Shown in pieces: positions 5,339-42,965 of a stretch of 49,409 nucleotides of DNA. Origin of the DNA: a virus; IMG/VR virus record IMGVR_UViG_3300047408_000062, positions 1 to 49,409 of that record; one strand, given 5' to 3'. The stretch's first letter is position 1. The number at the start of each line of letters is the position of its first letter. The notes under the pieces are model-generated. The model saw nothing but the letters and a program-made list of their open reading frames with translations. It was not told where the DNA came from and ran no database searches. A program made the translations under genes and the position numbers.

Positions 5339-5600
5339 CGCTCTTGGCCTCGTCCACCTCGGCCTTGTCCGACTCGTGCCAGGCCAGCCAGTGGGTGAAC
5401 CCGACGTTGGTGGCTCCACGAGCGACCTCCTCACGCCAGAGCGCGACCATCCCCAGGCTGTCGGGGTCCACCTTCGGCTTCTCCCGAGCCCGCATCTCCT
5501 GCGCCTCCATGCAGTTGGCGATGGTGCGCAGCGAGCTGGCGATGGAGTGCATCACCTGCTCCTGACCGATGGTCCAGGGGTGGATGTCTCCGTTTCCCAT
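5331..5600 (-). CDS. hypothetical helical protein
   Basis: 89 residues beginning MGNGDIHPW. The start codon shares bases with the stop of the 56-residue zinc protein upstream (TGATG). Mostly helical; the middle has a single Cys. Function unknown. Confidence 0.7.
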   Translation of the reverse strand: MGNGDIHPWTIGQEQVMHSIASSLRTIANCMEAQEMRAREKPKVDPDSLGMVALWREEVARGATNVGFTHWLAWHESDKAEVDEAKSDG

Positions 5601-13339: not shown

Positions 13340-13694
13340 AGCCGGCCCTCTCGATCTTCTCGGCCTTGGCGAAGACATCCAGCACGTCCTGCTTGCCCTT
13401 GCAGTCGTTCTTGGAGTCGTTCCAGGACCAGATGATGGACTGGATCGGGTACTGGCAGTTGGCATACCGCTCGGCCAGGCTGGGCTCCAGCACGCCAGCG
13501 ATCCGGTTGATGGCCTTCATCACCAGCGGGTGCTTTTCGAGAACGACGTTCGTCTCCAGTCCGTTGCCGAGCAGAAGACCACCCAGGGCACAGGCCTGAC
13601 GACCGTTGGGGCCCATCAGGTTTCCGCGCCACCAGCCGTTCTGCTCGATGTACTCGCGCCCGTTGGCGATGGCGTCTGCTACCTCGTCACTCAT
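13323..13694 (-). CDS. DUF6197-like protein, copy 3
   Basis: 123 residues beginning MSDEVADAIA. Shared family pattern with the two genes upstream: N-terminal helix, GWWRGNL, Cys followed by GGL, then WND and an acidic helical end (DVLDVFAKAEKIE). The resemblance to the DUF6197 pattern is by eye. First of three related neighbours in position, last in transcription order. Confidence 0.65.
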   Translation of the reverse strand: MSDEVADAIANGREYIEQNGWWRGNLMGPNGRQACALGGLLLGNGLETNVVLEKHPLVMKAINRIAGVLEPSLAERYANCQYPIQSIIWSWNDSKNDCKGKQDVLDVFAKAEKIERAGYDPDA

Positions 13695-14037
13695 CTGGGT
13701 TCACTCCTCCGTTGCGCTCGATCTTCTCGGCCTTGGCCAGCAGGTCCAGGACCTCCTGCTCGGTGGTGGACTCCGCGTCGTTCCAGTCCGGGATGGACTG
13801 GTTGATGCCCTCTGCCCTCATCGTCCGGTAGATGGCGACGACCGCCGTCGCTCCCACCTCGCTCTTGAAGATCCCGGTCTGAAGACCCGGCTGCCTCTGC
13901 AACAGCCCCAGGGTGCAGGTCAGCGCACCCATCACGCAGGCCTTGTTGTCCGGACCCATCAGGGTGCCCTTCCACAGGCCGAACGTCTCGATGTACTCCC
14001 TGGTCGCGGCCAGGGCGTCTGCTACCTCGTCACTCAT
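13687..14037 (-). CDS. DUF6197-like protein, copy 2
   Basis: 116 residues. N-terminus MSDEVADALAATREYIE matches the following gene closely; GLWKGTLMGP, CVMGAL, DWNDAE and EVLDLLAKAEKIE are the family blocks. A recent tandem duplication with copy 3. Function unknown. Confidence 0.7.
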   Translation of the reverse strand: MSDEVADALAATREYIETFGLWKGTLMGPDNKACVMGALTCTLGLLQRQPGLQTGIFKSEVGATAVVAIYRTMRAEGINQSIPDWNDAESTTEQEVLDLLAKAEKIERNGGVNPDE

Positions 14038-14392
14038 GGCTCTTCTCCTTTCCGGGCGGAATGACGCGGGTCAGCGCGTCGTGAATCGTCCACATGTCCT
14101 CGGTGGCACGGGTGCGTCCGGCGTCGTCGCCCGCCGTGTGTATCACCTGGTCGAACAGTCGGCCCAGCGCGGCAAGAGCCGCGTCATTCTTGGCGGTGGG
14201 GTCATGCGGGCACGGCTGCGGGCAGTCCAGCGAGCACAAGTGCAGTGCGTCGTTCTCGCTCGGTCGCTCCCAGAGCGGCATCCCAGCCTCGTCGGTCTCA
14301 TCTGAGAACTCCAACGGACCTGGGGTGTCGACGTGAGTGCCGAAGGCGAACCAGCCCTCCGGAGGTGGCTTGAAGGTCACGGGGTCACTCAT
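14030..14392 (-). CDS. hypothetical protein with Cys cluster
   Basis: 120 residues. CSLDCPQPC with a neighbouring His suggests a metal site; a helical region (DAALAALGRLFDQVI) follows; ends TRVIPPGKEKSHE. It sits between two DUF6197-like genes. Shares two nucleotide blocks with the gene at 12427-12588. Confidence 0.65.
   Translation of the reverse strand: MSDPVTFKPPPEGWFAFGTHVDTPGPLEFSDETDEAGMPLWERPSENDALHLCSLDCPQPCPHDPTAKNDAALAALGRLFDQVIHTAGDDAGRTRATEDMWTIHDALTRVIPPGKEKSHE
14052..14198. repeat. paired blocks shared with 12455-12577
   Basis: CCGGGCGGAATGACGCGGG at 14052-14070 (identical over 19 nt) and GCGTCATTCTTGGCGGTG at 14181-14198 (17 of 18 identical to the other copy). Same order and orientation as the other copy, spacing 24 nt longer. 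Confidence 0.7.
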
Positions 14393-14822
14393 CGACGTTC
14401 CCCGACCTGGCGTCCTTCTCGGCCTTCATGAAGGTGTCCAGGACCTCCTGCTCGCCAGTGCCCTCGTGGTCGTTCCAGTGGGTGACCGCGTTGATGGTGC
14501 AGGAGCAGACTCCCTCCTTGGTGCACACCTGAGGAGAGTGGCCGATCTCCAGGTCGGCAGCCTTGGCCAGGGCGTAGGCCAGGGCCAGGGTGCGGTGGTC
14601 GGTGGAGCAGTCCTGCTCGTTGATGCCCAGCTCGTAGATGCCGGCACCCATCGCGCAGTAGCCGACCACCTCCCAGTTGATGGGCTCGTCGTCGTCATCG
14701 GCGTCGTCGGCGTACTCGTTCTCGACGATCCGGAACTCGCCCTTGACCCAGCCCTCCTCCTTCAGTCGGTCCCGGGACTTGGCCAGGAGGTCGGCCAGCT
14801 CGTCGTTCGACACGTCATACAT
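14385..14822 (-). CDS. DUF6197-like protein, copy 1
   Basis: 145 residues from MYDVSNDELADLL, the longest of three related genes: GWVKGEF, an inserted acidic stretch (YADDADDDDE), YCAMGAGIYEL, HWNDHEGTGEQEVLD and an acidic helical end. The start follows CGAAAGGAACACAAG. The insert and extra cysteines (CSCT) separate it from copies 2 and 3. Confidence 0.7.
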   Translation of the reverse strand: MYDVSNDELADLLAKSRDRLKEEGWVKGEFRIVENEYADDADDDDEPINWEVVGYCAMGAGIYELGINEQDCSTDHRTLALAYALAKAADLEIGHSPQVCTKEGVCSCTINAVTHWNDHEGTGEQEVLDTFMKAEKDARSGNVDE

Positions 14823-15147
14823 CTTGTGTTCCTTTCGGGTTGTTCTTGCAGGTACCACAGATACCGAAGGCGAGGATGACCTGCCTGCCTTCGATGGTCC
14901 GGACAATGTGTCCGGTGTAGAACGTCTCGGTGCCAATGTCCGGGACGTACTTGCCACAGCGGTCGCAGGTGCGCTCCCAGCGCGCCAGCTCCGCGCTGGT
15001 CATCTCGTGGTCTCCCTCATCGAGGAAGGAGAAGATGAGGGGCTGCTCTCCGCTTGCGATGTCGAACGCACCGGCCTCTTTCATCAGGGCGATGCGCTGG
15101 TCGACCTTCGCGATCATCCAGTCCTCTTCCTTCTCCGGCTCACTCAT
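14815..15147 (-). CDS. hypothetical zinc-ribbon protein
   Basis: 110 residues. Helical N-terminal half; C-terminal half has CDRCGKY and CGTCKNN separated by strands (HIVRTIEGRQVILAFGI), a treble-clef or zinc-ribbon arrangement. Overlaps the upstream gene by 8 bases. Confidence 0.7.
   Translation of the reverse strand: MSEPEKEEDWMIAKVDQRIALMKEAGAFDIASGEQPLIFSFLDEGDHEMTSAELARWERTCDRCGKYVPDIGTETFYTGHIVRTIEGRQVILAFGICGTCKNNPKGTQDV
14823..14842 (-). promoter_or_regulatory. start-associated sequence copy
   Basis: Minus strand AACCCGAAAGGAACACAAG before the ATG; core AAAGGAACA, with CCATG altered to CCCG. Confidence 0.5.
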
Positions 15148-15514
15148 GGGAGAAGGACTCGAGAGCGGATAGCAGACCGCCGGCCTGCTCCTCGGTGACC
15201 GTGATCGGTGCCGAGGTCTTCTGCTCGAGCTGCTTGGAGTTCTCGATGATCCGCTCCGCCGTGGTGGGCAGGTCGGATATCGGTACCTCCATCTCGTTGA
15301 TGTCGTAGGACAGCTCGTCGAAGTGGTACGCCAGGGCGTCCGAGATCTCCCCGTTGGTCCCCTCGACCTGAATGTTCTCGTCGTGACCGCAGTCGTCCTC
15401 ACTGCAGTCGTCGAGCCAGCCCACAGCGAGGTACCGATATGCGGCATCTACCGAGGGATGGAGCGATGCATAGACCTCACAGTCGTAGTGCGTCCACAAC
15501 ACGATCGTCTTCAT
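15140..15514 (-). CDS. first left-arm gene, hypothetical acidic protein
   Basis: 124 residues from MKTIVLWTHY. A short strand and then an acidic region with CSEDDCGHDE (possible metal site), and a helical C-terminus. Its start is decided by an excellent CCATGAAAGGAGAAGAC. It is the first gene of the leftward run after the control region, so it should be the most strongly expressed if the terminator before it is read through. Confidence 0.7.
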   Translation of the reverse strand: MKTIVLWTHYDCEVYASLHPSVDAAYRYLAVGWLDDCSEDDCGHDENIQVEGTNGEISDALAYHFDELSYDINEMEVPISDLPTTAERIIENSKQLEQKTSAPITVTEEQAGGLLSALESFSHE

Positions 15515-15536
15515 GTCTTCTCCTTTCATGGTTGTC
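15515..15536 (-). promoter_or_regulatory. start-associated sequence copy
   Basis: Minus strand GACAACCATGAAAGGAGAAG before the ATG of the first left-arm gene; one of the best copies. Confidence 0.7.
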
Positions 15537-15543
15537 CGGACAT

Positions 15544-15592
15544 GAAAAAAGCCCGGTGTCGAGGATGGTATGAACCACCTCCGACACCGGGC
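15544..15592 (-). terminator. strong intrinsic terminator
   Basis: GCCCGGTGTCG stem of 11 bp, extended above a bulge, followed by TTTTTT on the minus strand. It ends the tRNA-like transcription unit and stands before the first left-arm gene. Confidence 0.85.
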
Positions 15593-15635
15593 CGGTCCCC
15601 CGATCCCCCGCATGGGGCTGGGGATTGAAGGGGAG

Positions 15636-15700
15636 TGACGTAGCAGGAGTCGAACCTGCGACCACCTCGATGAGGTGCTCTACCGCTGAGCTATACGTCT
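15636..15700 (-). tRNA. tRNA-like element with shortened anticodon arm
   Basis: Minus strand begins AGACGTATAGCTCAGCGGTA. Acceptor arms GACGTA/TACGTC pair (6 bp; the 1-72 position would be A-A). The D-arm GCTC-AGCGGTA-GAGC and T-arm GCAGG-TTCGACT-CCTGC are textbook. Between them ACCTC-ATC-GAGGT leaves only a 3-nt loop in place of the 7-nt anticodon loop, so no anticodon can be assigned and total length is about 65 nt instead of 72 or more. No CCA is encoded. It should fold as the upper half of a tRNA but cannot decode. Either a degenerate tRNA or an RNA with another role. Confidence 0.65.
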
Positions 15701-15725
15701 CTTCATGAGGACATGCCTCATGAAG
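15701..15725. promoter_or_regulatory. perfect 10-bp inverted repeat before tRNA-like RNA
   Basis: CTTCATGAGG-ACATG-CCTCATGAAG. It lies 4-5 bases after the predicted +1 and ends where the tRNA-like acceptor stem begins; a 5' hairpin in the RNA or an operator in DNA. Confidence 0.7.
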
Positions 15726-15735
15726 AACTACGTTC

Positions 15736-15764
15736 AGTATAGCATATACACTACAAAAGCACAA
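15736..15764 (-). promoter_or_regulatory. leftward promoter of tRNA-like unit
   Basis: -35 TTGTGC, 17-bp spacer, -10 TATACT on the minus strand. The spacer carries TGTAGTGTAT four bases before the -10, the element shared with the promoters at 2963 and 15971. It overlaps the tail of the preceding terminator. Confidence 0.75.
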
Positions 15765-15765
15765 G

Positions 15766-15789
15766 GGCCCCATCCCGAAGGATGGGGCC
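15766..15789 (-). terminator. terminator with UUCG tetraloop
   Basis: GGCCCCATCC-CGAA-GGATGGGGCC, a 10-bp perfect stem; minus strand reads a UUCG loop and then CTTGTGCTTTTG. It ends the small RNA that starts near 15964. Confidence 0.8.
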
Positions 15790-15964
15790 TGCTCTGGAGG
15801 TCCGGTGCCCCTCATGTGCGACTACTTGTCGCGGGGTCTTATCTCGGATGACTCCGGGGGGAGTACTCCGCGAGCTCGGTTCGCATTGAAGCTACTTGCG
15901 AGCCCGCCGGCGGCGTCATCTATAGCTGCCACCATGAGCTACTTGGTATAGAACTTTCACTCAT
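15766..15964 (-). ncRNA. putative small non-coding RNA, ~200 nt
   Basis: Bounded by a consensus promoter and a UUCG terminator, with no credible gene inside: the longest ATG frame is 26 codons with no Shine-Dalgarno. In the minus-strand RNA, AAGUAG occurs three times, each in or at the loop of a short hairpin: ACCA-AGUAGCUCA-UGGU, CGCA-AGUAGCUUCAA-UGCG and GCGAC-AAGUA-GUCGC. Repeated loop sequence suggests a protein-binding or base-pairing RNA. No known family recognised; not 6S, tmRNA or RNase P by its layout. Confidence 0.6.
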
Positions 15965-15970
15965 ATACAC

Positions 15971-15999
15971 AGTATATGCCATACACGACACTTTGTCAA
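15971..15999 (-). promoter_or_regulatory. consensus leftward promoter of the ncRNA
   Basis: -35 TTGACA (perfect), 17-bp spacer, -10 TATACT on the minus strand; TGTCGTGTAT in the spacer four bases before the -10. The -35 overlaps the stop of the 101-residue gene. The strongest sigma-70-type promoter seen in the window. Confidence 0.85.
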
Positions 16000-16303: not shown

Positions 16304-17842
16304 CTACACCTGTCTGCTGAGAGCGGTCTGGTAGGCCTGCACGATGTTGTACAGGTCGGTCACATTCTGGTCGTTCAGCCCCGAGCCGATCGAGGCGAAC
16401 CCCACCGGGATGTCGGAGCGGTTGTTGAAGTTGTTGATCGCACCGAGCCAGAGCGGACGATCAGGCAGCGCGACGGATGCTTCTGAGGACGAGCCGAGCT
16501 TGACCCCGTTCCGGTAGGGAGTGGTGGTGGTGGGACCGGTGCGGGAAGTGACGAACAGCCCAGAAGCCGCTGGTGAGGGAACGTTGGTGGAGGCGTTCTC
16601 GCTCATTCCGTAGTAGTAGGCGTTCACGCCCTGGTACCGGGCGATGATGTGGAACCGCGAGGTAGCCATGCCGCCCCAGTTGAACGCTCCGAACTCGGCG
16701 CGGTCTGCTGCCGGGGTGTCCTGGAGGCTGTACCAGGACAGATGGGTGGAGTCCTGGGTCAGGACACCGAGCGGGATGAAGTGGGTGTCGGCGTAGCCAC
16801 CGTTGGCCTGCTGGCCCTGTGCGTTCGCCCGGTAGCCCAGGGCTGTGGAGTGAGTGGTGGAAGGAGCGTTGTAGTAGGTCAGCCGGTAGGCAGCATCAAG
16901 GTCCCGAGGGTCCTTCAGGTTCCACCTGTGCAGGGCTGCGGTGCCACCGATGAACGGGTAGATGGCCTGCATCTTGGTCCACAGCCCAGCGGCCTTCAGG
17001 TCCTTGACCAGCGCGTCGAGCTTGTGGCCGTAGGTGGGCTCGTCCAGCCCGGTCGCCGCGAGGTAGGCGGTGGCGTCCGGGTCGTAGGTGTACGGCTTCG
17101 GCAGCCCCCACTTCGTCTGCAGGTAGTCCTCGACCTGCTTCCGCTCGGCATCGAGGAGCTTGCGGTTGTAGATGATGAGCTCTCCGACCTCGATGTCCAT
17201 CGACTCAGTGGTGGACACCTGGTCGTAGCCACTCAGACCCCAGCCGTTGGTGAGGCCTTGGGCACTGCTAGTGACGACTCTTCCGTACACCGTGCCGTTG
17301 ATGTAGAACCCCATAGTTCCAACCGAAGAACTGGAGTCAGCCTCGTACAGCTTCCAGGAACCAGGCGCTGTACCCCAAGGTGAAGCACCGCCCCCGTTGG
17401 GGCCGAGCCACGTTGGGTAGAAAGTGTCCTGGCCTGTGGTGTGCATCCCGACCAACAGGTTCGAGGGTGGGTAGCAGACACTCCATCCACGGCCTACGCC
17501 GGGACCTACCCAGCGAACCGTGTAGAGCACAGTCCAGTCGTCAACCGGGTAGGGCCAGTCCCCTCTGACCCGACCCTCGTTGGCCTTGAACCGGATGGTG
17601 GGACGACCGTTCTGGGGTACGCCGGCGGTCATCACCGGAGTGCCCACCACCCGTACAGCCGCTCCAGGTCCCCGGTTGGGCCAGGTGCCGGCTGCGTAGT
17701 CCTCTGCCCTCAGCCAGGTGACCAGGCCGGAGAGGGCGTTGGGTTTGAAGGTGGGCTGCCAGACCAGGTTGGAGCCGAGGTACATCTTGTCCACGGTCTG
17801 GGTGCCGAGACGCAGGGTGTCGGCATCGTTCAGGACGGGCAT
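16304..17842 (-). CDS. LamG/lectin-like tail protein, probable receptor binding
   Basis: 512 residues from [12 protein letters not shown]. After ~35 residues there is a concanavalin-like domain: SGLVTWLRAEDY, then strands through DWTVLYTVRWVG and MGFYINGTVYGR to ELIIYNRKLLDAERKQVEDYLQTKWG, the classic end of phage LamG domains. From ~residue 275 a second beta-rich lectin-like unit repeats the theme (RFHIIARYQGVN, ...YRNGVKLGSSSEAS, PLWLGAINNFN, DQNVTDLYNIVQAYQTAL). Such proteins bind host surface sugars. The start shares bases with the stop of the collagen-like gene. It is the distal element of this cassette. Confidence 0.8.
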   Translation of the reverse strand: MPVLNDADTLRLGTQTVDKMYLGSNLVWQPTFKPNALSGLVTWLRAEDYAAGTWPNRGPGAAVRVVGTPVMTAGVPQNGRPTIRFKANEGRVRGDWPYPVDDWTVLYTVRWVGPGVGRGWSVCYPPSNLLVGMHTTGQDTFYPTWLGPNGGGASPWGTAPGSWKLYEADSSSSVGTMGFYINGTVYGRVVTSSAQGLTNGWGLSGYDQVSTTESMDIEVGELIIYNRKLLDAERKQVEDYLQTKWGLPKPYTYDPDATAYLAATGLDEPTYGHKLDALVKDLKAAGLWTKMQAIYPFIGGTAALHRWNLKDPRDLDAAYRLTYYNAPSTTHSTALGYRANAQGQQANGGYADTHFIPLGVLTQDSTHLSWYSLQDTPAADRAEFGAFNWGGMATSRFHIIARYQGVNAYYYGMSENASTNVPSPAASGLFVTSRTGPTTTTPYRNGVKLGSSSEASVALPDRPLWLGAINNFNNRSDIPVGFASIGSGLNDQNVTDLYNIVQAYQTALSRQV

Positions 17843-18225
17843 CAGCCGACGATCACGTAGAGGGTGTTCGGGTCCTTGGTGGACAGGGCCGTGTACGCCG
17901 CCTGGGTCATCGTGGCCCACACGCCGGAGGCTCCCTGGACACCCGGTGGACCCTGCTGTCCGGTCGGTCCAGGTGGTCCCTGCGGCCCCGTAGAGCCTTG
18001 GACGCCCTGTGGCCCGGGAACAGTCGACGCGGGCCCCGTAGGGCCTACTGCGCCTACGGCTCCTTGTACGCCTCTAGGCCCCGTTGAACCAGGCACCCCG
18101 ATGGTGACTCCCTGCATGGGGACATTGACCACAGGCACAGGTGTGGGGTTGGCGGCTATGACCGTAGCGGCCTGGATGTCCACGGTGAGAGTGGTCTGAG
18201 GAACGGCTGCACTGACCGAGATCAT
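17842..18225 (-). CDS. collagen-like tail fibre protein
   Basis: 127 residues: a short beta-like N-terminal segment ([19 protein letters not shown]), about 16 Gly-X-Y triplets (residues ~49-98; [17 protein letters not shown]), and a C-terminal unit ([22 protein letters not shown]) of the type that often follows phage collagen stalks. Predicted trimeric stalk linking the beta-sandwich protein to the lectin. Coupled on both sides by TGATG. Confidence 0.8.
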
Positions 18226-35981: not shown

Positions 35982-38900
35982 ATGGTGTACGACCAGGCGC
36001 AATCTCCTCGTCTGGGCCAGCGCACTCCGGTCGAGTCCACCTATGTCCGGATGTTCTCCGGCGGGGAGGTCCCGGAGGCTGCCTGGCCGGGCCAGCTCAT
36101 CTACATCAACGAGGACCAGATCCTCCAGATCTACAACGGTGATGCCTGGGAGGACGTGACCGGAGGCGATCTGGGCCAGCTCACCTTCGTCGGGCCCACT
36201 CCGCCGACCGCTCAGCACATCGGTGATGTCTGGTACAACACCTCGGACGGCAACCGGATGTACCTGGCCAAGTCCGTGGGAGCAGACCAGATCGCTCCTG
36301 GCGAGTGGGAGCTGGTCTCTGCTGCTGCTCCTCCGCTGGTGCCTGGCACGCACATCTACCACCAGGACACACCGCCCGGTCCTGCTGACGTACCCCCGCC
36401 GGCGAACAACGACTTCTGGTACGAGACGCCCGGGAACCACCAGTACTACTACTCCAGCGCTGCTCCAGGAACGCACTGGATCTTCGTGCAGGACACCGGC
36501 ATCCCAGCGGCCATCAAGTCCACCCTGACCGAGTTCGCGGTGAACAGCTCGGAGACGGTGGCTCCTACCACGGGCTGGTCGGTGACCACGCCCACGCGCG
36601 CACCCGGGACGTTCGTGTGGTTCCGGACCACCACGACCAAGAACGACAACACCAGCACTACCACCAACCCCGCTCTGCTCACTGGTAACACCGGAGCGAC
36701 AGGCCCTCAGGGCACGACGGGCTCTCAGGGAGTTCCAGGTCCTCCCGGAGCCAGTGGTACGCCGGTCTACACCTGGGTGAAGTACGCGGACACGCCCACC
36801 ACGGGGATGAGCGACGATCCCACCGGCAAGAAGTACATGGGCCTGTCCTACAACCAGGCCAGTTCCACGGAGTCGAACATCTACGCGGACTACGCCTGGT
36901 CGCTGATCACCGGTGCCGATGGCGTGGCCGGTCCTCCGGGGGCCGATGGCCAGCCCACGTACACCTGGATCAAGTACGGCACCAGCGCGACCGGAGCTGG
37001 TCTCCAGGACTCGCCCACCGGGATGACCTACATGGGCATCTCCTACAACAAGCTCACGCCCACCGAGTCCAACGTCCCCACCGACTACGAGTGGTCGCTG
37101 ATCCAGGGACCACAGGGAGCTCAGGGGCCACAGGGCAACCAGGGCTCGCAGGGCATCCAAGGCCCTGCCGGGTCGAACGGGCAGACTCTCTACACCTGGA
37201 TCAAGTACGCCGACTCCCCGACCACGGGGATGGTGGACCTGCCTGCTGGCAAGGCGTACATGGGCATCGCCTACAACAAGACGACCCCCACCGAGTCGAG
37301 CATCTACGGCGACTACGAGTGGAACCTGACCCAGGGCGCACAGGGCAACCAGGGCATCCCCGGTGCTGCCGGTGCCAACGGTGTGCCCGTCTACACCTGG
37401 GTCAAGTACGCGAACAACGCCACTCCCACCTCGGGCCAGATGTCGGACGACCCGACCGGAATGGTCTACATGGGGCTGTCCTACAACCAGCTCAGCGCCA
37501 CCGAGGGCACCGACTACCACGCCTACTCCTGGAGCCTGATCCAGGGACCGCAGGGCCCGGCTGGGAGTACCGGCAACACGGGTGCACCAGGAGCTCCCGG
37601 GTCCAGCGTGGGCACGGTCACCCCGTACTGGGCGACGGTCAACTACGGCGCGAGCGGTCCGGCCAAGCCCACCACGGCCACTCCGATCGCTCCCTGGGTC
37701 ACCACCGAGCCGGCGTTCTCGGTCGGCACCGAGCAGTGGCGGACCGAGAAGACCACGCTCACCGACACCACGTTCTCCTACTCCACGCCCTACAAGTCCT
37801 CCATGTACGGGGCCGTGGCCACCGATCGGATCGCTCCCTCGAGCTCGCCCACACCCGAGGTGATCCCCGGGATCGGTGCCTTCTTCCTGCGCTGGCCGGC
37901 GGTGGCCAACCACGATCCGGTGACCTACGACGTGCACATCTCGGACACCTCGGGGTTCACTCCCGGTCCGACCACGCTGTACGACAGCACCACTGCCTAC
38001 TCGATGACGATCCGGCACCTGGTCCCGATCGACCCCAACACCACGCTCCCGTTCCCGCTGCTCTACGACGACCCGCCGGGCACCAAGCCGTACTTCTTCA
38101 AGATCGTGGCTCGGGACGCGGACGGCTCTGCTCCCGCGAGCGCGCAGGTGAACCAGGGTCTGCCGGCGATCACCAGCACGGACATCACCGCCCGATCGGT
38201 CAAGGCCGACAGCATCGTGACCGGCTCCCTGACCGGAGACCTGTTCAGCGGCACCGTGGTGCTGGGCTCCACGATCAGCACCGGAGTGATCGGTGCGGAC
38301 GGTCAGATCGCGGGCGCGCGGGTGGACCTGGGTCCGCTCGGGCTGGTGGTCTACGACAGCACTGGCACCCCGATCACCGGCTTCCCGCTGGACCCGTCCC
38401 AGGACGCCTTCGTCAAGCAGGCGCACTTCGACATGCTGTCGGCGGACGTGCAGGACAACTTCTCCATGCACGGCAAGAACAACCAGCTCGCCACCGAGTC
38501 CGAGCTGACCATCGCGGCTGGGGTGACACCTCCGAACGCGCAGCCCACGGTGACGGTGTTCTACGACCAGATCCAGCTGGACCGGAACACGGCGGTGCGG
38601 TCGAACACGCCGAACCCCTACTACGACCTGGGCACCTTCGCTCTGGACCCGTCCCAGATCTGCGCGATGGCCTGGATCAACGCCTGGGGTGGCTACTGGG
38701 CAGTGATCCAGGAGAAGTCGAACGGACTGCGGTTCTGGCGGTTCAACCCCAACGGCACGATCTTCAACAACCCGGTCAACGGTCGTCCCTGGGTCGACGA
38801 CTTCAACGACCGGTCCAACGGCGGGACCTGCTACGACAGTGCCTTCAGCGACAGCGCCTTCATGTTCAAGCAAGGCGTCAGCGGCTACTACATCATCGGC

Positions 38901-41900
38901 TACCCGCCCGCTGGCGGGAACGCGATCACCAACACCATCCCGGCGGGCTGGATCCTGGACAGCGACACACGTCCTCCGACGCTGGCCTTCGACTCGATCG
39001 CGAACCGGTACATCCTGTTCCAGTCCACCGGAGGAGCGAATGGGACCTGGAGTGCGCGCCGGTTCCACCTGGTAGCGGGCTCGGGTGGGAATCTTGGAGC
39101 GGCCTCCTCGACCGGTGACGGTGCGGTCATCACTGGTCCGGCCTCGTCCGGGAACTCCCAGCGGGTCAACGGTCTGGTCTACGGCAACCAGATCCCCGGT
39201 GGCTCCTCCTACCGGTACGCGATCTCGTTGGACGCCACGCTGGGGATTGCGGTCTGGGACTCGGCCATCACCGCGCGCAAGCTCGTGGACGGGAGCTACG
39301 AGGAGTGGTCCAAGGCCACTCCGTCGCTCGGGTTCTGCCACGACGGCACCCAGTTCTGCTCGGTGGACGCGACCGGCAAGATCACCAAGTACACGTCCTG
39401 GAACTGGCCACAGGCCAACGCGGTGTCCTACATCGGTGCCTCGGCCATCGCCACCGTTCCATCGCCCGACTACGAGACTCCGATCGGGGCTCAGTACGCC
39501 AAGTTCACCTCGCCACGTCGGGCCAAGATCCGGATCAAGATGCCGGAGACCGATGGCGACGGCACCGACAACCGCGCGAACAAGTGGGGGCTGTACTGGT
39601 ATCGCGGAACCAGCGACCCCACCACCGGTGCGGTGTTCAAGCAGATCGGCCTGATCGGCTCCTCCACGCTGCCCACCACCATCGACGTGACGGCCGATCC
39701 CACCGGGGCTCCTCCGCCGTACGGGCTGCAGGGCAAGCTGGACTCGATCAACAACCCGTCCGGCAACTTCCCGGCAGCCAACCCGGCCTCGATCCAGAGC
39801 TCCGCCCTGCTCGGTGGGAACCCGACCATCGCCCTGAACGGCGACGGCTCGGGTCGGCTGGGACAGGCGTACTGGGACACCAATGGGAACTGGTCCGGTA
39901 TCGCCGGTGGTAGTGGCGGCGGCAGCCTGGACACCTACACCGCCGCCGCGACGGCGAGCCTGACTCTGACCAATGTCGATGCTGACATCACCGGGATGTC
40001 CGTGCCGGTCTCGGTGGCCGGTCCCTCGGACCGGTTCCTGGTGGTTGCTGCCGTCGACTTTCGCGCTACGACTTCTACAACGGTCGTGGACAGCGCGGTG
40101 GCGGTGGGGAAGCTGCTGGTCGATGGGGTCATCCAGGCCGGACAGGCGGTCTTCAACAGCGGTTCCACAACGTCAGTCCGAGCCACGGTGCACCAGAACT
40201 GGATGATCACCGGGATGTCTGCGGGCACTCACACGGTCTCGATGAAAGCCTCGGAGAACGCCACCTCGGGCTCGATCACGCTCGGCGTCGCCCACACCAA
40301 GATGGTGATCGTGAAGCTGGTCGGCCCGACCGGTCCACAGGGGGCCAAGGGCGACAAGGGCGATCAGGGGTTGCAGGGGCTGCAGGGTGTCCAGGGCCCC
40401 ACCGGTCTCACCGGCAACCAGGGCGCGACCGGCAGCCAAGGTCCCATCGGCAACACGGGTGCACAGGGGCCACAGGGGACCACGGGCGCGACGGGTAGCC
40501 AGGGCATCCAGGGTCCGATCGGCAACACCGGAGCCCAGGGCACACCCGGTGAGAAGTGGTTCACGGGCGCGGGCGCACCTGCGGGCGCGACCGGGATCGT
40601 CGGGGACTGGGACCTGGACTCGGCCAACGGTGACTTCTACGAGAAGACCGGTGCCAGCGCCTGGACCCTGAGGGGCAACCTGAAGGGGCCTCAGGGCATC
40701 CAGGGCATCCAAGGTGTCACCGGTACCACCGGCTCGCAGGGACCTCAGGGAGCCACCGGAAACACGGGCAATACGGGTGCCCAGGGTCCACAGGGAGCGA
40801 CCGGTGCCACTGGCATCGCGGAGGCCTGGTACTCGGGCAACGTGGCTCCGACCGGGAGCGTGCCGGCGCTGGCCATCGTCGGGGACTGGTACCTGGACAC
40901 GGTGACCGGGTTCGTCTACGAGAAGACCTCGGCGGGTGGCTGGACGCAGCGCGCCTCGATCATGGGCCCGCAGGGGATCCAGGGTGCTACCGGAGCTACG
41001 GGAGCGACTGGATCCACGGGTGCTCAGGGACCGCCAGGTGCCGGTGGCGGCTCCTCGATGGCGGTGGTGGACGAGACCACCACCGTGGTCCCGCTGGCCA
41101 CTCAGATGACGTTCCGTGGTACCGGCGTGACCGCAGCTCTGGGGGCTGCTGGTGAGGCCGTGGTCACCATCCCGACCCCCACAGCCACCGGTACTGCAGG
41201 CGGTGACCTGACCGGGACCTACCCGAACCCCACGGTTCCGGCACTGGCGAACAAGATCGACACCTCGTCCAAGGGTGCCGCGAACGGGGTCGCCGGACTG
41301 GACTCGGCCAGCAAGGTGGCGATCGCAGCGATCCCGACCGGCCAGACCGGCACCACGGTCCCCCTGGGCAACGACGCTCGGTTCACCGACGCTCGTACGC
41401 CGACCGCGCACACCCACGTCAAGGCGAACATCACCGACTTCGCGCACAGCCACGTCAAGGCCGATGTCACCGACCTGGGCACGATCGGCACCGCAGCGGC
41501 CAAGAACATCCCCAGTTCTGGTGATGCGACGGGCACCGACGTGGTGCTGGCCAGCGACACCAGGCTGACCAACGCCAGGACTCCGACCACCCACGTCCAC
41601 GCGGCAGCCGACATCTCCTCCGGGATCGTCGACCTGTCCCGGCTCGGCAGCACCCCGGTCGCGGGGGAGTTCCTGAAGGCCGGTGCCACCACTGGACCCG
41701 CCGACTGGGCAGCGGTCACCAAGACCGACGTGGGCCTGAGCAACGTCCCGAACACCGACGCCACCGCGCGCGCGAACCACACCGGCACCCAGGCAGCTGC
41801 CACGATCACCGGCCTGGCCACCATCGCCACCTCCGGGTCGGCCACCGACCTGGGCGCTGGCACGGTGCCCCAGGCCCGGCTGGGCGCGTCCGGGACCAGG

Positions 41901-42965
41901 GACACGACCACGTTCCTGCGTGGTGACAACACCTTCGCGGCCCCGCCCGCGTACACGCTGCCCACCAACCCGCTCGCGGTCACCGAGCTGCGGACCACCA
42001 AGCTCGACTACAACCCGGCGGGAGCGGGTGACATCACAGCCGGCGTGTCGCTCAACATGAACGGCAACTACGTCTACGGCGTGCACACCCCGACCAACGT
42101 CGACCACGCGCTGACCAGGGGCTACCTGGACGGGCTGACCATCAAGATGCCCTGCCGGGTCGCCACTGTCGCCAACCTCGCCGCGCTGTCCGGGCTGATC
42201 GCCGTGGACACGGTGACGGTGGCGGCGGGTGACCGGGTGCTGGTGAAGAACCAGACCACGACCAGCCAGAACGGGATCTACGTCGCTGCCGCCGGAGCGT
42301 GGTCACGAGCCCCGGACAACAACACTGCTCCGCTGATGGCCTCGGCTGCGGTCGCCGTCAACGAGGGCACCTGGACCGGGCGCATCTTCCAGAACAAGTT
42401 CAAGTCCACTGACACCCTGGGCACCACCGGCATCGACTGGTGGTACCTGATGGACAACCTGGCCGGGTCCATCGCCTACGCTCCCAAGCCGACAGGGACT
42501 CCAGACGGCACCAAGTTCTTCCGTGACGACAACACTTGGGTCACTCCGTTCACCCCGGCCATGGACTGGTTCAACTCGGTCGCGGCCACCTCCATCCCGG
42601 TCACGACCTACACCTCTGTGATCACCTGGACCCGGGTCGCGGGCATCACCAATCCTGGGTATCTGACCTACCCAGGAGGATCGAGCAGCATCTTCACGGT
42701 GGCTCAGGCCGGTCTCTACCAGATCAACTTCTCCGGCACCTTCACCGCTGCCGCCGATGGCCGACGACTAGTGCTGATCTTCTTGAACGGCGTTGAGGAT
42801 CGTCGCGCAGAGATCATGACTTCGGTGGCAGCGACTGTCGAGATCAGCCACGCCCGGTACCTGGCTGTCGGAAACACGCTGGAGTTCAAGATGTACATGA
42901 GCGGCGGTGGAGCTCTGATGGGTGTGTCTCCGGGCGAGGACATGCAGATCATTCGGCTCGCCTGA
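35982..42965 (+). CDS. very large collagen-containing tail fibre
   Basis: 2,327 residues. Order: a ~230-residue N-terminal attachment region with GDVWYNTSDGNRMYLAK and NDFWYETPGNHQYYY units; four tandem ~64-residue modules (YTWVKYADTPTTGMSDDPTG ... YMGLSYNQ ... DYAWSLI, ~258-520) separated by Gly-X-Y runs; a fibronectin-type-III-like unit (~626-723); ARSVKADSIVTGSLTGDLFSG; a beta-propeller-like region with a repeated strand pattern (~850-1200); a jelly-roll (~1326-1443); three collagen stretches (~1450-1690) spaced by two GDWDLD/GDWYLD modules; repeated HTHVKANITDF/HVHAAADIS units; and a C-terminal C1q-like head (~2193-2327). It should trimerise and contact the host. Confidence 0.88.
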   Translation: MVYDQAQSPRLGQRTPVESTYVRMFSGGEVPEAAWPGQLIYINEDQILQIYNGDAWEDVTGGDLGQLTFVGPTPPTAQHIGDVWYNTSDGNRMYLAKSVGADQIAPGEWELVSAAAPPLVPGTHIYHQDTPPGPADVPPPANNDFWYETPGNHQYYYSSAAPGTHWIFVQDTGIPAAIKSTLTEFAVNSSETVAPTTGWSVTTPTRAPGTFVWFRTTTTKNDNTSTTTNPALLTGNTGATGPQGTTGSQGVPGPPGASGTPVYTWVKYADTPTTGMSDDPTGKKYMGLSYNQASSTESNIYADYAWSLITGADGVAGPPGADGQPTYTWIKYGTSATGAGLQDSPTGMTYMGISYNKLTPTESNVPTDYEWSLIQGPQGAQGPQGNQGSQGIQGPAGSNGQTLYTWIKYADSPTTGMVDLPAGKAYMGIAYNKTTPTESSIYGDYEWNLTQGAQGNQGIPGAAGANGVPVYTWVKYANNATPTSGQMSDDPTGMVYMGLSYNQLSATEGTDYHAYSWSLIQGPQGPAGSTGNTGAPGAPGSSVGTVTPYWATVNYGASGPAKPTTATPIAPWVTTEPAFSVGTEQWRTEKTTLTDTTFSYSTPYKSSMYGAVATDRIAPSSSPTPEVIPGIGAFFLRWPAVANHDPVTYDVHISDTSGFTPGPTTLYDSTTAYSMTIRHLVPIDPNTTLPFPLLYDDPPGTKPYFFKIVARDADGSAPASAQVNQGLPAITSTDITARSVKADSIVTGSLTGDLFSGTVVLGSTISTGVIGADGQIAGARVDLGPLGLVVYDSTGTPITGFPLDPSQDAFVKQAHFDMLSADVQDNFSMHGKNNQLATESELTIAAGVTPPNAQPTVTVFYDQIQLDRNTAVRSNTPNPYYDLGTFALDPSQICAMAWINAWGGYWAVIQEKSNGLRFWRFNPNGTIFNNPVNGRPWVDDFNDRSNGGTCYDSAFSDSAFMFKQGVSGYYIIGYPPAGGNAITNTIPAGWILDSDTRPPTLAFDSIANRYILFQSTGGANGTWSARRFHLVAGSGGNLGAASSTGDGAVITGPASSGNSQRVNGLVYGNQIPGGSSYRYAISLDATLGIAVWDSAITARKLVDGSYEEWSKATPSLGFCHDGTQFCSVDATGKITKYTSWNWPQANAVSYIGASAIATVPSPDYETPIGAQYAKFTSPRRAKIRIKMPETDGDGTDNRANKWGLYWYRGTSDPTTGAVFKQIGLIGSSTLPTTIDVTADPTGAPPPYGLQGKLDSINNPSGNFPAANPASIQSSALLGGNPTIALNGDGSGRLGQAYWDTNGNWSGIAGGSGGGSLDTYTAAATASLTLTNVDADITGMSVPVSVAGPSDRFLVVAAVDFRATTSTTVVDSAVAVGKLLVDGVIQAGQAVFNSGSTTSVRATVHQNWMITGMSAGTHTVSMKASENATSGSITLGVAHTKMVIVKLVGPTGPQGAKGDKGDQGLQGLQGVQGPTGLTGNQGATGSQGPIGNTGAQGPQGTTGATGSQGIQGPIGNTGAQGTPGEKWFTGAGAPAGATGIVGDWDLDSANGDFYEKTGASAWTLRGNLKGPQGIQGIQGVTGTTGSQGPQGATGNTGNTGAQGPQGATGATGIAEAWYSGNVAPTGSVPALAIVGDWYLDTVTGFVYEKTSAGGWTQRASIMGPQGIQGATGATGATGSTGAQGPPGAGGGSSMAVVDETTTVVPLATQMTFRGTGVTAALGAAGEAVVTIPTPTATGTAGGDLTGTYPNPTVPALANKIDTSSKGAANGVAGLDSASKVAIAAIPTGQTGTTVPLGNDARFTDARTPTAHTHVKANITDFAHSHVKADVTDLGTIGTAAAKNIPSSGDATGTDVVLASDTRLTNARTPTTHVHAAADISSGIVDLSRLGSTPVAGEFLKAGATTGPADWAAVTKTDVGLSNVPNTDATARANHTGTQAAATITGLATIATSGSATDLGAGTVPQARLGASGTRDTTTFLRGDNTFAAPPAYTLPTNPLAVTELRTTKLDYNPAGAGDITAGVSLNMNGNYVYGVHTPTNVDHALTRGYLDGLTIKMPCRVATVANLAALSGLIAVDTVTVAAGDRVLVKNQTTTSQNGIYVAAAGAWSRAPDNNTAPLMASAAVAVNEGTWTGRIFQNKFKSTDTLGTTGIDWWYLMDNLAGSIAYAPKPTGTPDGTKFFRDDNTWVTPFTPAMDWFNSVAATSIPVTTYTSVITWTRVAGITNPGYLTYPGGSSSIFTVAQAGLYQINFSGTFTAAADGRRLVLIFLNGVEDRRAEIMTSVAATVEISHARYLAVGNTLEFKMYMSGGGALMGVSPGEDMQIIRLA

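Follow-up and report, generated by a model that had tools for sequence, protein, structure and literature searches.

A tRNA body that lacks an anticodon loop is present in the window, the 49.4-kb linear virus record analysed here, where, judged from the alignment with related phages, it has been inserted into a conserved phage noncoding RNA (unit 2), after the first hairpin and ahead of the second. With a probability of roughly 0.48 we consider this element to be kept as an RNase P/RNase Z processing module or 3'-end module of that RNA. Transcription, cleavage, stability and function of the element, and likewise selection on this copy, are what we infer from the sequence. A wider and more tentative reading is that phages share a widespread class of anticodon-less tRNA bodies, which would act as transferable tags for RNase P/RNase Z and thereby define the ends of phage noncoding RNAs; this joint claim would cover GOLLD, abiF-like antidotes and unit 2 as the bacterial-virus counterpart of mascRNA.

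In an Rfam scan of the window the tRNA model (RF00005) matched at 15635-15700 with 48.1 bits (cut-off 29), while ARAGORN called neither a tRNA nor a tmRNA at the element (Table 1); the tRNA-finder check suggested by an earlier sequence-only reading is thus positive with the one program and negative with the other. The acceptor stem GACGUA/UACGUC comprises 6 bp and is shorter than the canonical 7-bp stem, as position 1/72 would be A.A. In 5' to 3' direction it is followed by U8 and A9 and then by the D arm. Both the D and the T arm are perfectly paired, the variable region reads GGUC, and the tertiary letters U8, A14, G15, G18, G19, A21, C48, U54, U55, C56 and A58 are all present. A 5-bp stem capped by the triloop AUC stands where a 7-nt anticodon loop with U33 would be expected, and the element continues 3' as CUCC, so that CCA is not encoded. 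The sequence-only reading had described the two arms, the 6-bp acceptor, ACCTC-ATC-GAGGT at the site of the anticodon arm and a perfect 10-bp hairpin in front of it. All of this is borne out by sequence, fold and the RF00005 match, and the hairpin comprises 11 bp if a U-A pair is counted. Furthermore, its statement that the RNA cannot decode as drawn and that the elbow half is intact agrees with the triloop, the missing U33 and the complete set of tertiary letters.

The 5' hairpin abuts G2 of the acceptor directly. Hairpin and element together fold better than 200/200 dinucleotide shuffles (z -3.8), the element alone modestly better than shuffles (z -2.0 to -2.5), and the leader ACGUAG may also pair with CUACGU in the 3' strand of the acceptor, as the centroid fold shows. 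A pattern search for a second copy of the same mini-arm found none; except for one unrelated chance hit, it gave tRNA-like sequences with a full-length 17-nt anticodon arm. The exact element is a single known copy with no second sequenced homologue.

Table 1 Features of the two noncoding-RNA units and of the tRNA-like element in the window, and tRNA or tRNA-like sequences at the 3' end of GOLLD (positions in the contigs named)
Feature	Position	Strand	Basis or occurrence
Unit 1, noncoding-RNA unit upstream of unit 2	15766..15999	-	Tandem unit kept in L132, L134, L135
Unit 1 promoter TTGACA-N17-TATACT	15999-15971	-	Motif
Unit 1 terminator	15789-15766	-	
Unit 2 promoter TTGTGC-N17-TATACT	15736..15764	-	Motif recurs at the same place in L132, L135 (N18), L134
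5' hairpin, 10 bp + U-A, loop CAUGU, flush with acceptor stem	15700..15726	-	Sequence, fold; relatives
tRNA-like element without anticodon loop, 6-bp acceptor, A1.A72	15636..15700	-	RF00005, 48.1 bits
D arm GCUC-AGCGGUA-GAGC	15677..15691	-	Sequence and RF00005 match
Mini-arm ACCUC-AUC-GAGGU replacing the anticodon arm	15664..15676	-	Sequence and fold
T arm GCAGG-UUCGACU-CCUGC	15643..15659	-	Sequence and RF00005 match
Middle hairpin of unit 2, loop region ..CCCCAUGCGGGG..	15597..15633	-	Also in L132 and L135
Intrinsic terminator of unit 2, hairpin and U run	15545..15593	-	Hairpin in 4/4 phages; U run broken in L135
tRNA or tRNA-like at GOLLD 3' end, Streptococcus (pro)phages	L309 2196-2285; L310 2196-2279; L252 3775-3847		
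tRNA or tRNA-like at GOLLD 3' end, Streptococcus (pro)phages	L308 2273-2385; L166 3818-3876; L251/L311/L312 after GOLLD		

Unit 2 consists, all on the minus strand, of a promoter, the 5' hairpin, the element, a middle hairpin and a terminator. Its promoter, which had been proposed before, scores 8/12 to consensus and lies under the threshold of a simple promoter scan, yet the same motif is found at the same place in three relatives. These phages, L132 (81 kb), L134 (83 kb) and L135 (42 kb), have replication genes in common with the window. The three-hairpin layout of unit 2 is shared by L132 and L135; in L134 the first hairpin and the terminator are kept and the middle is more diverged. The 5' hairpin of the relatives has the same position and a different sequence. 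According to the alignment, about 67 nt matching the element are absent from unit 2 of L132 and L135, and the tRNA model has no match anywhere in the records of L132, L134 and L135. As at least two relatives have the site without the element and none of the three has a tRNA, the element represents a gain, or a clean loss elsewhere, rather than the decay of an old tRNA at its original site. Related phages with an intact tRNA at this site, named earlier as evidence against a special role, were not encountered; the aligned relatives hold unit 2 without a tRNA. The gene downstream of unit 2 most likely starts at 15514 (minus), with a ribosome-binding sequence before it; a longer ORF (15140-15613) reaches back through the unit 2 terminator. 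Counterparts of unit 1 are located at 8010-8148 in L132, 7866-8048 in L135 and 5436-5627 in L134, and in this phage genus the unit carries a promoter TTGACA/TTGTGC-N17-TATACT/TATAAT and a terminator. No Rfam family matched unit 1.

The architecture of the element recurs in other phages. Viral contigs were searched for the letters of canonical D and T arms at a shortened distance from each other. A first scan gave at least 118 stretches, with a perfect 7-bp acceptor in roughly half of those listed. A stricter, complete scan gave 52, with linkers of 8 nt (n=28), 9 nt (n=17) or 10 nt (n=7) and none of 6 or 7 nt; with the acceptor register allowed to slide, 7/7 pairs were formed in 32/52 and at least 6 in 46/52 of this set, which contains a few near-duplicates. 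In an unflooded scan linkers of 3-21 nt were tallied. Among the matches listed there was none with a linker of 3-7 nt, at least 15 with 8, at least 11 with 9 and at least 3 with 10 nt, at least 8 in all with 11-16 nt, at least 13 with 17 nt and more up to 21 nt. The lengths are therefore bimodal among the matches listed, with at least 29 at 8-10 nt, a trough of at least 8 at 11-16 nt and at least 77 at 17-21 nt, and two forms can be distinguished, 'armless' (linker 8-10 nt) and 'mini-arm' (17-21 nt). In the armless form the anticodon arm is cut out and about 3-4 nt act as a bridge; the linker keeps the variable-loop letters G46, U47 and C48, partly fixed by the pattern, and does so also in the 60-copy set described below. 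Mini-arms have stems of mostly 3-6 bp and caps from tri- to heptaloops, including UUCG (L387) and GAAA (L380), and some of the longest members are close to ordinary tRNAs. ARAGORN called 27/50 mini-arm and 0/26 armless copies, i.e. the armless form is skipped by standard tRNA finders. The class was defined by D and T arms, an acceptor of at least 6 bp, the lack of a 7-nt anticodon loop and a linker of 8-10 nt or a mini-arm of 17-21 nt; the window element (linker 17 nt, 5-bp stem, triloop) belongs to its mini-arm form. Most members are solitary: no second tRNA lies within 2 kb of 18/26 armless and 33/50 mini-arm copies.

Armless copies are also located in prophage regions of cultured bacteria, namely Streptococcus porci, Companilactobacillus futsaii, Lacticaseibacillus porcinae, Lacticaseibacillus mingshuiensis, Weissella bombi, Corynebacterium flavescens and Microbacterium. 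The pattern scan of bacterial genomes yielded many artefacts (misregistered ordinary tRNAs, masked N runs). In Bacteroidota chromosomes (L173, L190, L211, L241 and similar) D-arm and T-arm letters recur with a poorly paired acceptor, a linker like AGCAGGAAAAC and a T arm GCAGGTTCGAATCCTGC followed by TATCAAC. Another such family with little acceptor pairing exists in Clostridia chromosomes (L171, L179, L193, L235), with the letters AAGTAAT TAGCTCAG..GGTAGAGC ATAAGGCAAGGAAA AGGGGTTCGAATCCCCA.

Signs of selection are found at the level of the class. Perfect acceptors occur in 43 of 60 distinct armless copies, compared with 1.1 expected with swapped partners, in a sample that is biased upward because copies were admitted at 5 or more acceptor pairs. 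All acceptor pairs of these 60 copies show changes on both sides (covariation). In addition, the armless elements of L050 and L104 are identical at 60/61 positions, and their flanks at 73% over 1.2 kb. Conservation of the D-arm and T-arm letters is no evidence, since these letters are fixed by the search patterns.

Class copies are preceded by 60 nt that are unusually structured, with a mean fold z of -1.34 and 33% below -2, and a second analysis gave a similar picture; the control, stretches 240-300 nt upstream rather than intact phage tRNAs, has a mean z of -0.32 with 5% below -2. The stretch downstream is somewhat structured as well (z -1.08). Several copies are preceded by strong hairpins that end 0-9 nt from the acceptor, and some are followed immediately by a terminator. 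In the S. porci prophage the armless copy begins 4 nt past GOLLD and aligns with the tRNA of Javan565, with a few nucleotides in place of the anticodon arm. A tRNA or tRNA-like sequence follows GOLLD in each of 7 further GOLLD phages: 4/7 have an Rfam tRNA match starting about 7-11 nt past the GOLLD match, and 3/7 an unscored degenerate tRNA-like sequence with a T arm which overlaps or follows it. With S. porci included, an Rfam tRNA match begins within about 10 nt past GOLLD in 5 of the 8 loci. In L321 and the near-identical L328, a phage pair with T7-like gene order as judged from ORF layout only, the armless copy begins 5 nt past an abiF RNA, which is possibly an anti-defence RNA. The abiF RNA (RF03085) and the armless tRNA are located at 1866-1964 in L321 and near 5346 (-) in L328; the pair sits between apparent scaffold and capsid genes, and the short fragment has no recognisable abiF gene. 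Transfer RNAs of rRNA spacers contribute to rRNA processing, and in the 16S-23S spacer of Halorientalis regularis (L232 2763-2827, -) a tRNA was found with a 5-bp mini-stem and triloop for its anticodon arm. An Rfam scan of 33 viral or prophage loci revealed one GOLLD and one abiF neighbour (L328 was added later); GOLLD/ROOL as a general neighbour was rejected, because there was only one GOLLD among these loci. A location near the terminase genes was likewise set aside as a class feature: a large-terminase gene lies within about 2.5 kb at 8 of about 17 armless loci examined, but GOLLD and ordinary tRNAs are also located there and the window element is not.

The structured 60 nt upstream, the adjacency to GOLLD and abiF RNA and the haloarchaeal spacer case argue for a processing or end-forming tag, and the processing signal is, on class-level evidence, the best supported of the three roles that had been proposed for the element. 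Elbow and acceptor would form the recognition tag for tRNA-maturing enzymes, with RNase P acting on the 5' side and RNase Z, or exonucleases and the CCA enzyme, on the 3' side. By analogy to mascRNA/menRNA for MALAT1/NEAT1, the tag might separate or protect the ends of the flanking RNA parts. The anticodon arm would be dispensable for processing and could have shrunk to a stable mini-hairpin, with exclusion of the RNA from the ribosome as a possible further effect. Several observations count against the tag: the A1.A72 mismatch, the CCA that is not encoded, the single known copy of the window element, and the lack of a known RNA family alongside almost all Rfam-scanned armless copies. Moreover, as the 5' hairpin is flush with the acceptor there is no single-stranded leader, and cleavage by bacterial RNase P may be poor; the RNA of unit 2 may instead remain uncut and contain the tRNA body as one of its domains.

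The closest parallel in architecture are mascRNA and menRNA, the tRNA-like RNAs of MALAT1 and NEAT1/MEN beta. Like the element, they are non-decoding bodies with an intact elbow and a compact loop at the anticodon-loop site, attached to a noncoding RNA; cleavage by RNase P and RNase Z lets them define the end of that RNA (PMC11693755). However, they are eukaryotic, have a reduced D arm and receive CCA, and their processing was shown experimentally, whereas the element possesses a full class-I tRNA core, is phage-borne, is known from sequence alone and has no sequence homology to them; the shared reduced anticodon loop and junction to a noncoding RNA are a likeness of architecture, not a claim of homology. 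With canonical phage tRNAs (RF00005) the element shares D arm, T arm, acceptor and variable region, but it differs in the missing 7-nt anticodon loop, an acceptor that is one pair short and the lack of an ARAGORN call. The tRNA-like domain of tmRNA is also a tRNA half without an anticodon arm. Its distinguishing features, a G3-U70 pair, a tag reading frame and the lack of a normal D stem, have no counterpart in the element, and neither an Rfam tmRNA model match nor an ARAGORN tmRNA call was obtained in the window. SpF41 sRNA (RF02435) has, to judge from its Rfam model, a similar tRNA-like outline with a short central hairpin, but the window reaches 18.4 bits where the cut-off is 52. One description of GOLLD/ROOL phage RNAs places a tRNA near or in the large RNA and mentions tRNAs, not anticodon-less bodies (PMC12286853). 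Neither GOLLD (RF02032) nor ROOL was detected in the window, where RF00005 is the sole Rfam family.

A recently acquired phage tRNA whose anticodon arm has only now been shortened by 6 nt, and which is dying and functionless, would account for the single known copy, the A1.A72 mismatch and the relatives without the element; one contiguous 6-nt deletion from a phage tRNA of the Thr, Val or Asn type (L261, L289, L273) leads to nearly this sequence. However, everything but the anticodon loop is intact, the shortened stem pairs 5/5, and an architecture that recurs in unrelated phages, with a trough between size classes and designed-looking tetraloops, is unexpected from random decay; young decay is less probable than the tag, but clearly the most probable of the alternatives. 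The one known copy, the deletion route and the absent leader are the reasons for the weight given to it and for placing the processing tag no higher than stated above. From the earlier suggestion of a decayed tRNA, old decay in place has to be dropped in view of the relatives' unit without any tRNA, and young decay is the part that stands. The proposed decoy for anticodon nucleases found no support, as no defence-related gene or signal was found beside the element; moreover, such nucleases bind the anticodon arm, which is absent here, so that the element could not titrate them. A sponge for proteins that bind elbow or acceptor (RNase P, CCA enzyme, T-arm modification enzymes, toxins cutting at acceptor or elbow) would fit the intact elbow, the promoter and terminator of its own and the solitary occurrence in most phages, but a partner gene is not found nearby and the position right behind other structured RNAs is left unexplained; we regard it as improbable.

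On the sequence it is geometrically possible that the mini-arm opens to a 3-bp stem ACC/GGU with a 7-nt loop UCAUCGA, i.e. to a functional tRNA with an unorthodox anticodon loop. This loop has no U33, the 5-bp stem with triloop is the more stable fold and armless members of the class leave no room for a loop at all, which renders decoding very improbable. Phages frequently integrate at tRNA genes (PMC9897764), and the element might in principle be the remnant of a tRNA-derived attP. Such a remnant is hardly credible, since attP copies carry one end only and here both acceptor strands are present and complementary; furthermore, neither a tyrosine nor a serine recombinase was found in the window record (a partial genome) or in the relatives (two of 81-83 kb).

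The presence of tRNAs in phages is usually put down to codon usage or to evasion of anticodon nucleases. Neither purpose can be served by code-blind tRNA bodies, which suggests that phages benefit from the tRNA shape as such. Should these bodies be processing tags, they would reveal the ends of GOLLD-type RNAs and of other phage RNAs whose function is unknown, make such RNAs findable by the tag and represent a compact bacterial module for RNA excision. A literature search found no description of anticodon-less phage tRNAs, which does not prove their absence.

Searched at the nucleotide level, annotated phages gave no close match to the window. An actinobacterial host is plausible, because the DnaE-like polymerase of the window is nearest (34%) to proteins of Gordonia and Brevibacterium phages. 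Two DUF6197 proteins are encoded near each other (13687-14037 and 14385-14957, -). A tail protein of 2327 aa with a collagen-like tail-fibre region is located at 35982-42965 (+), and a small collagen-like ORF on the opposite strand (17842-18225, -) belongs to the same PHROGs.
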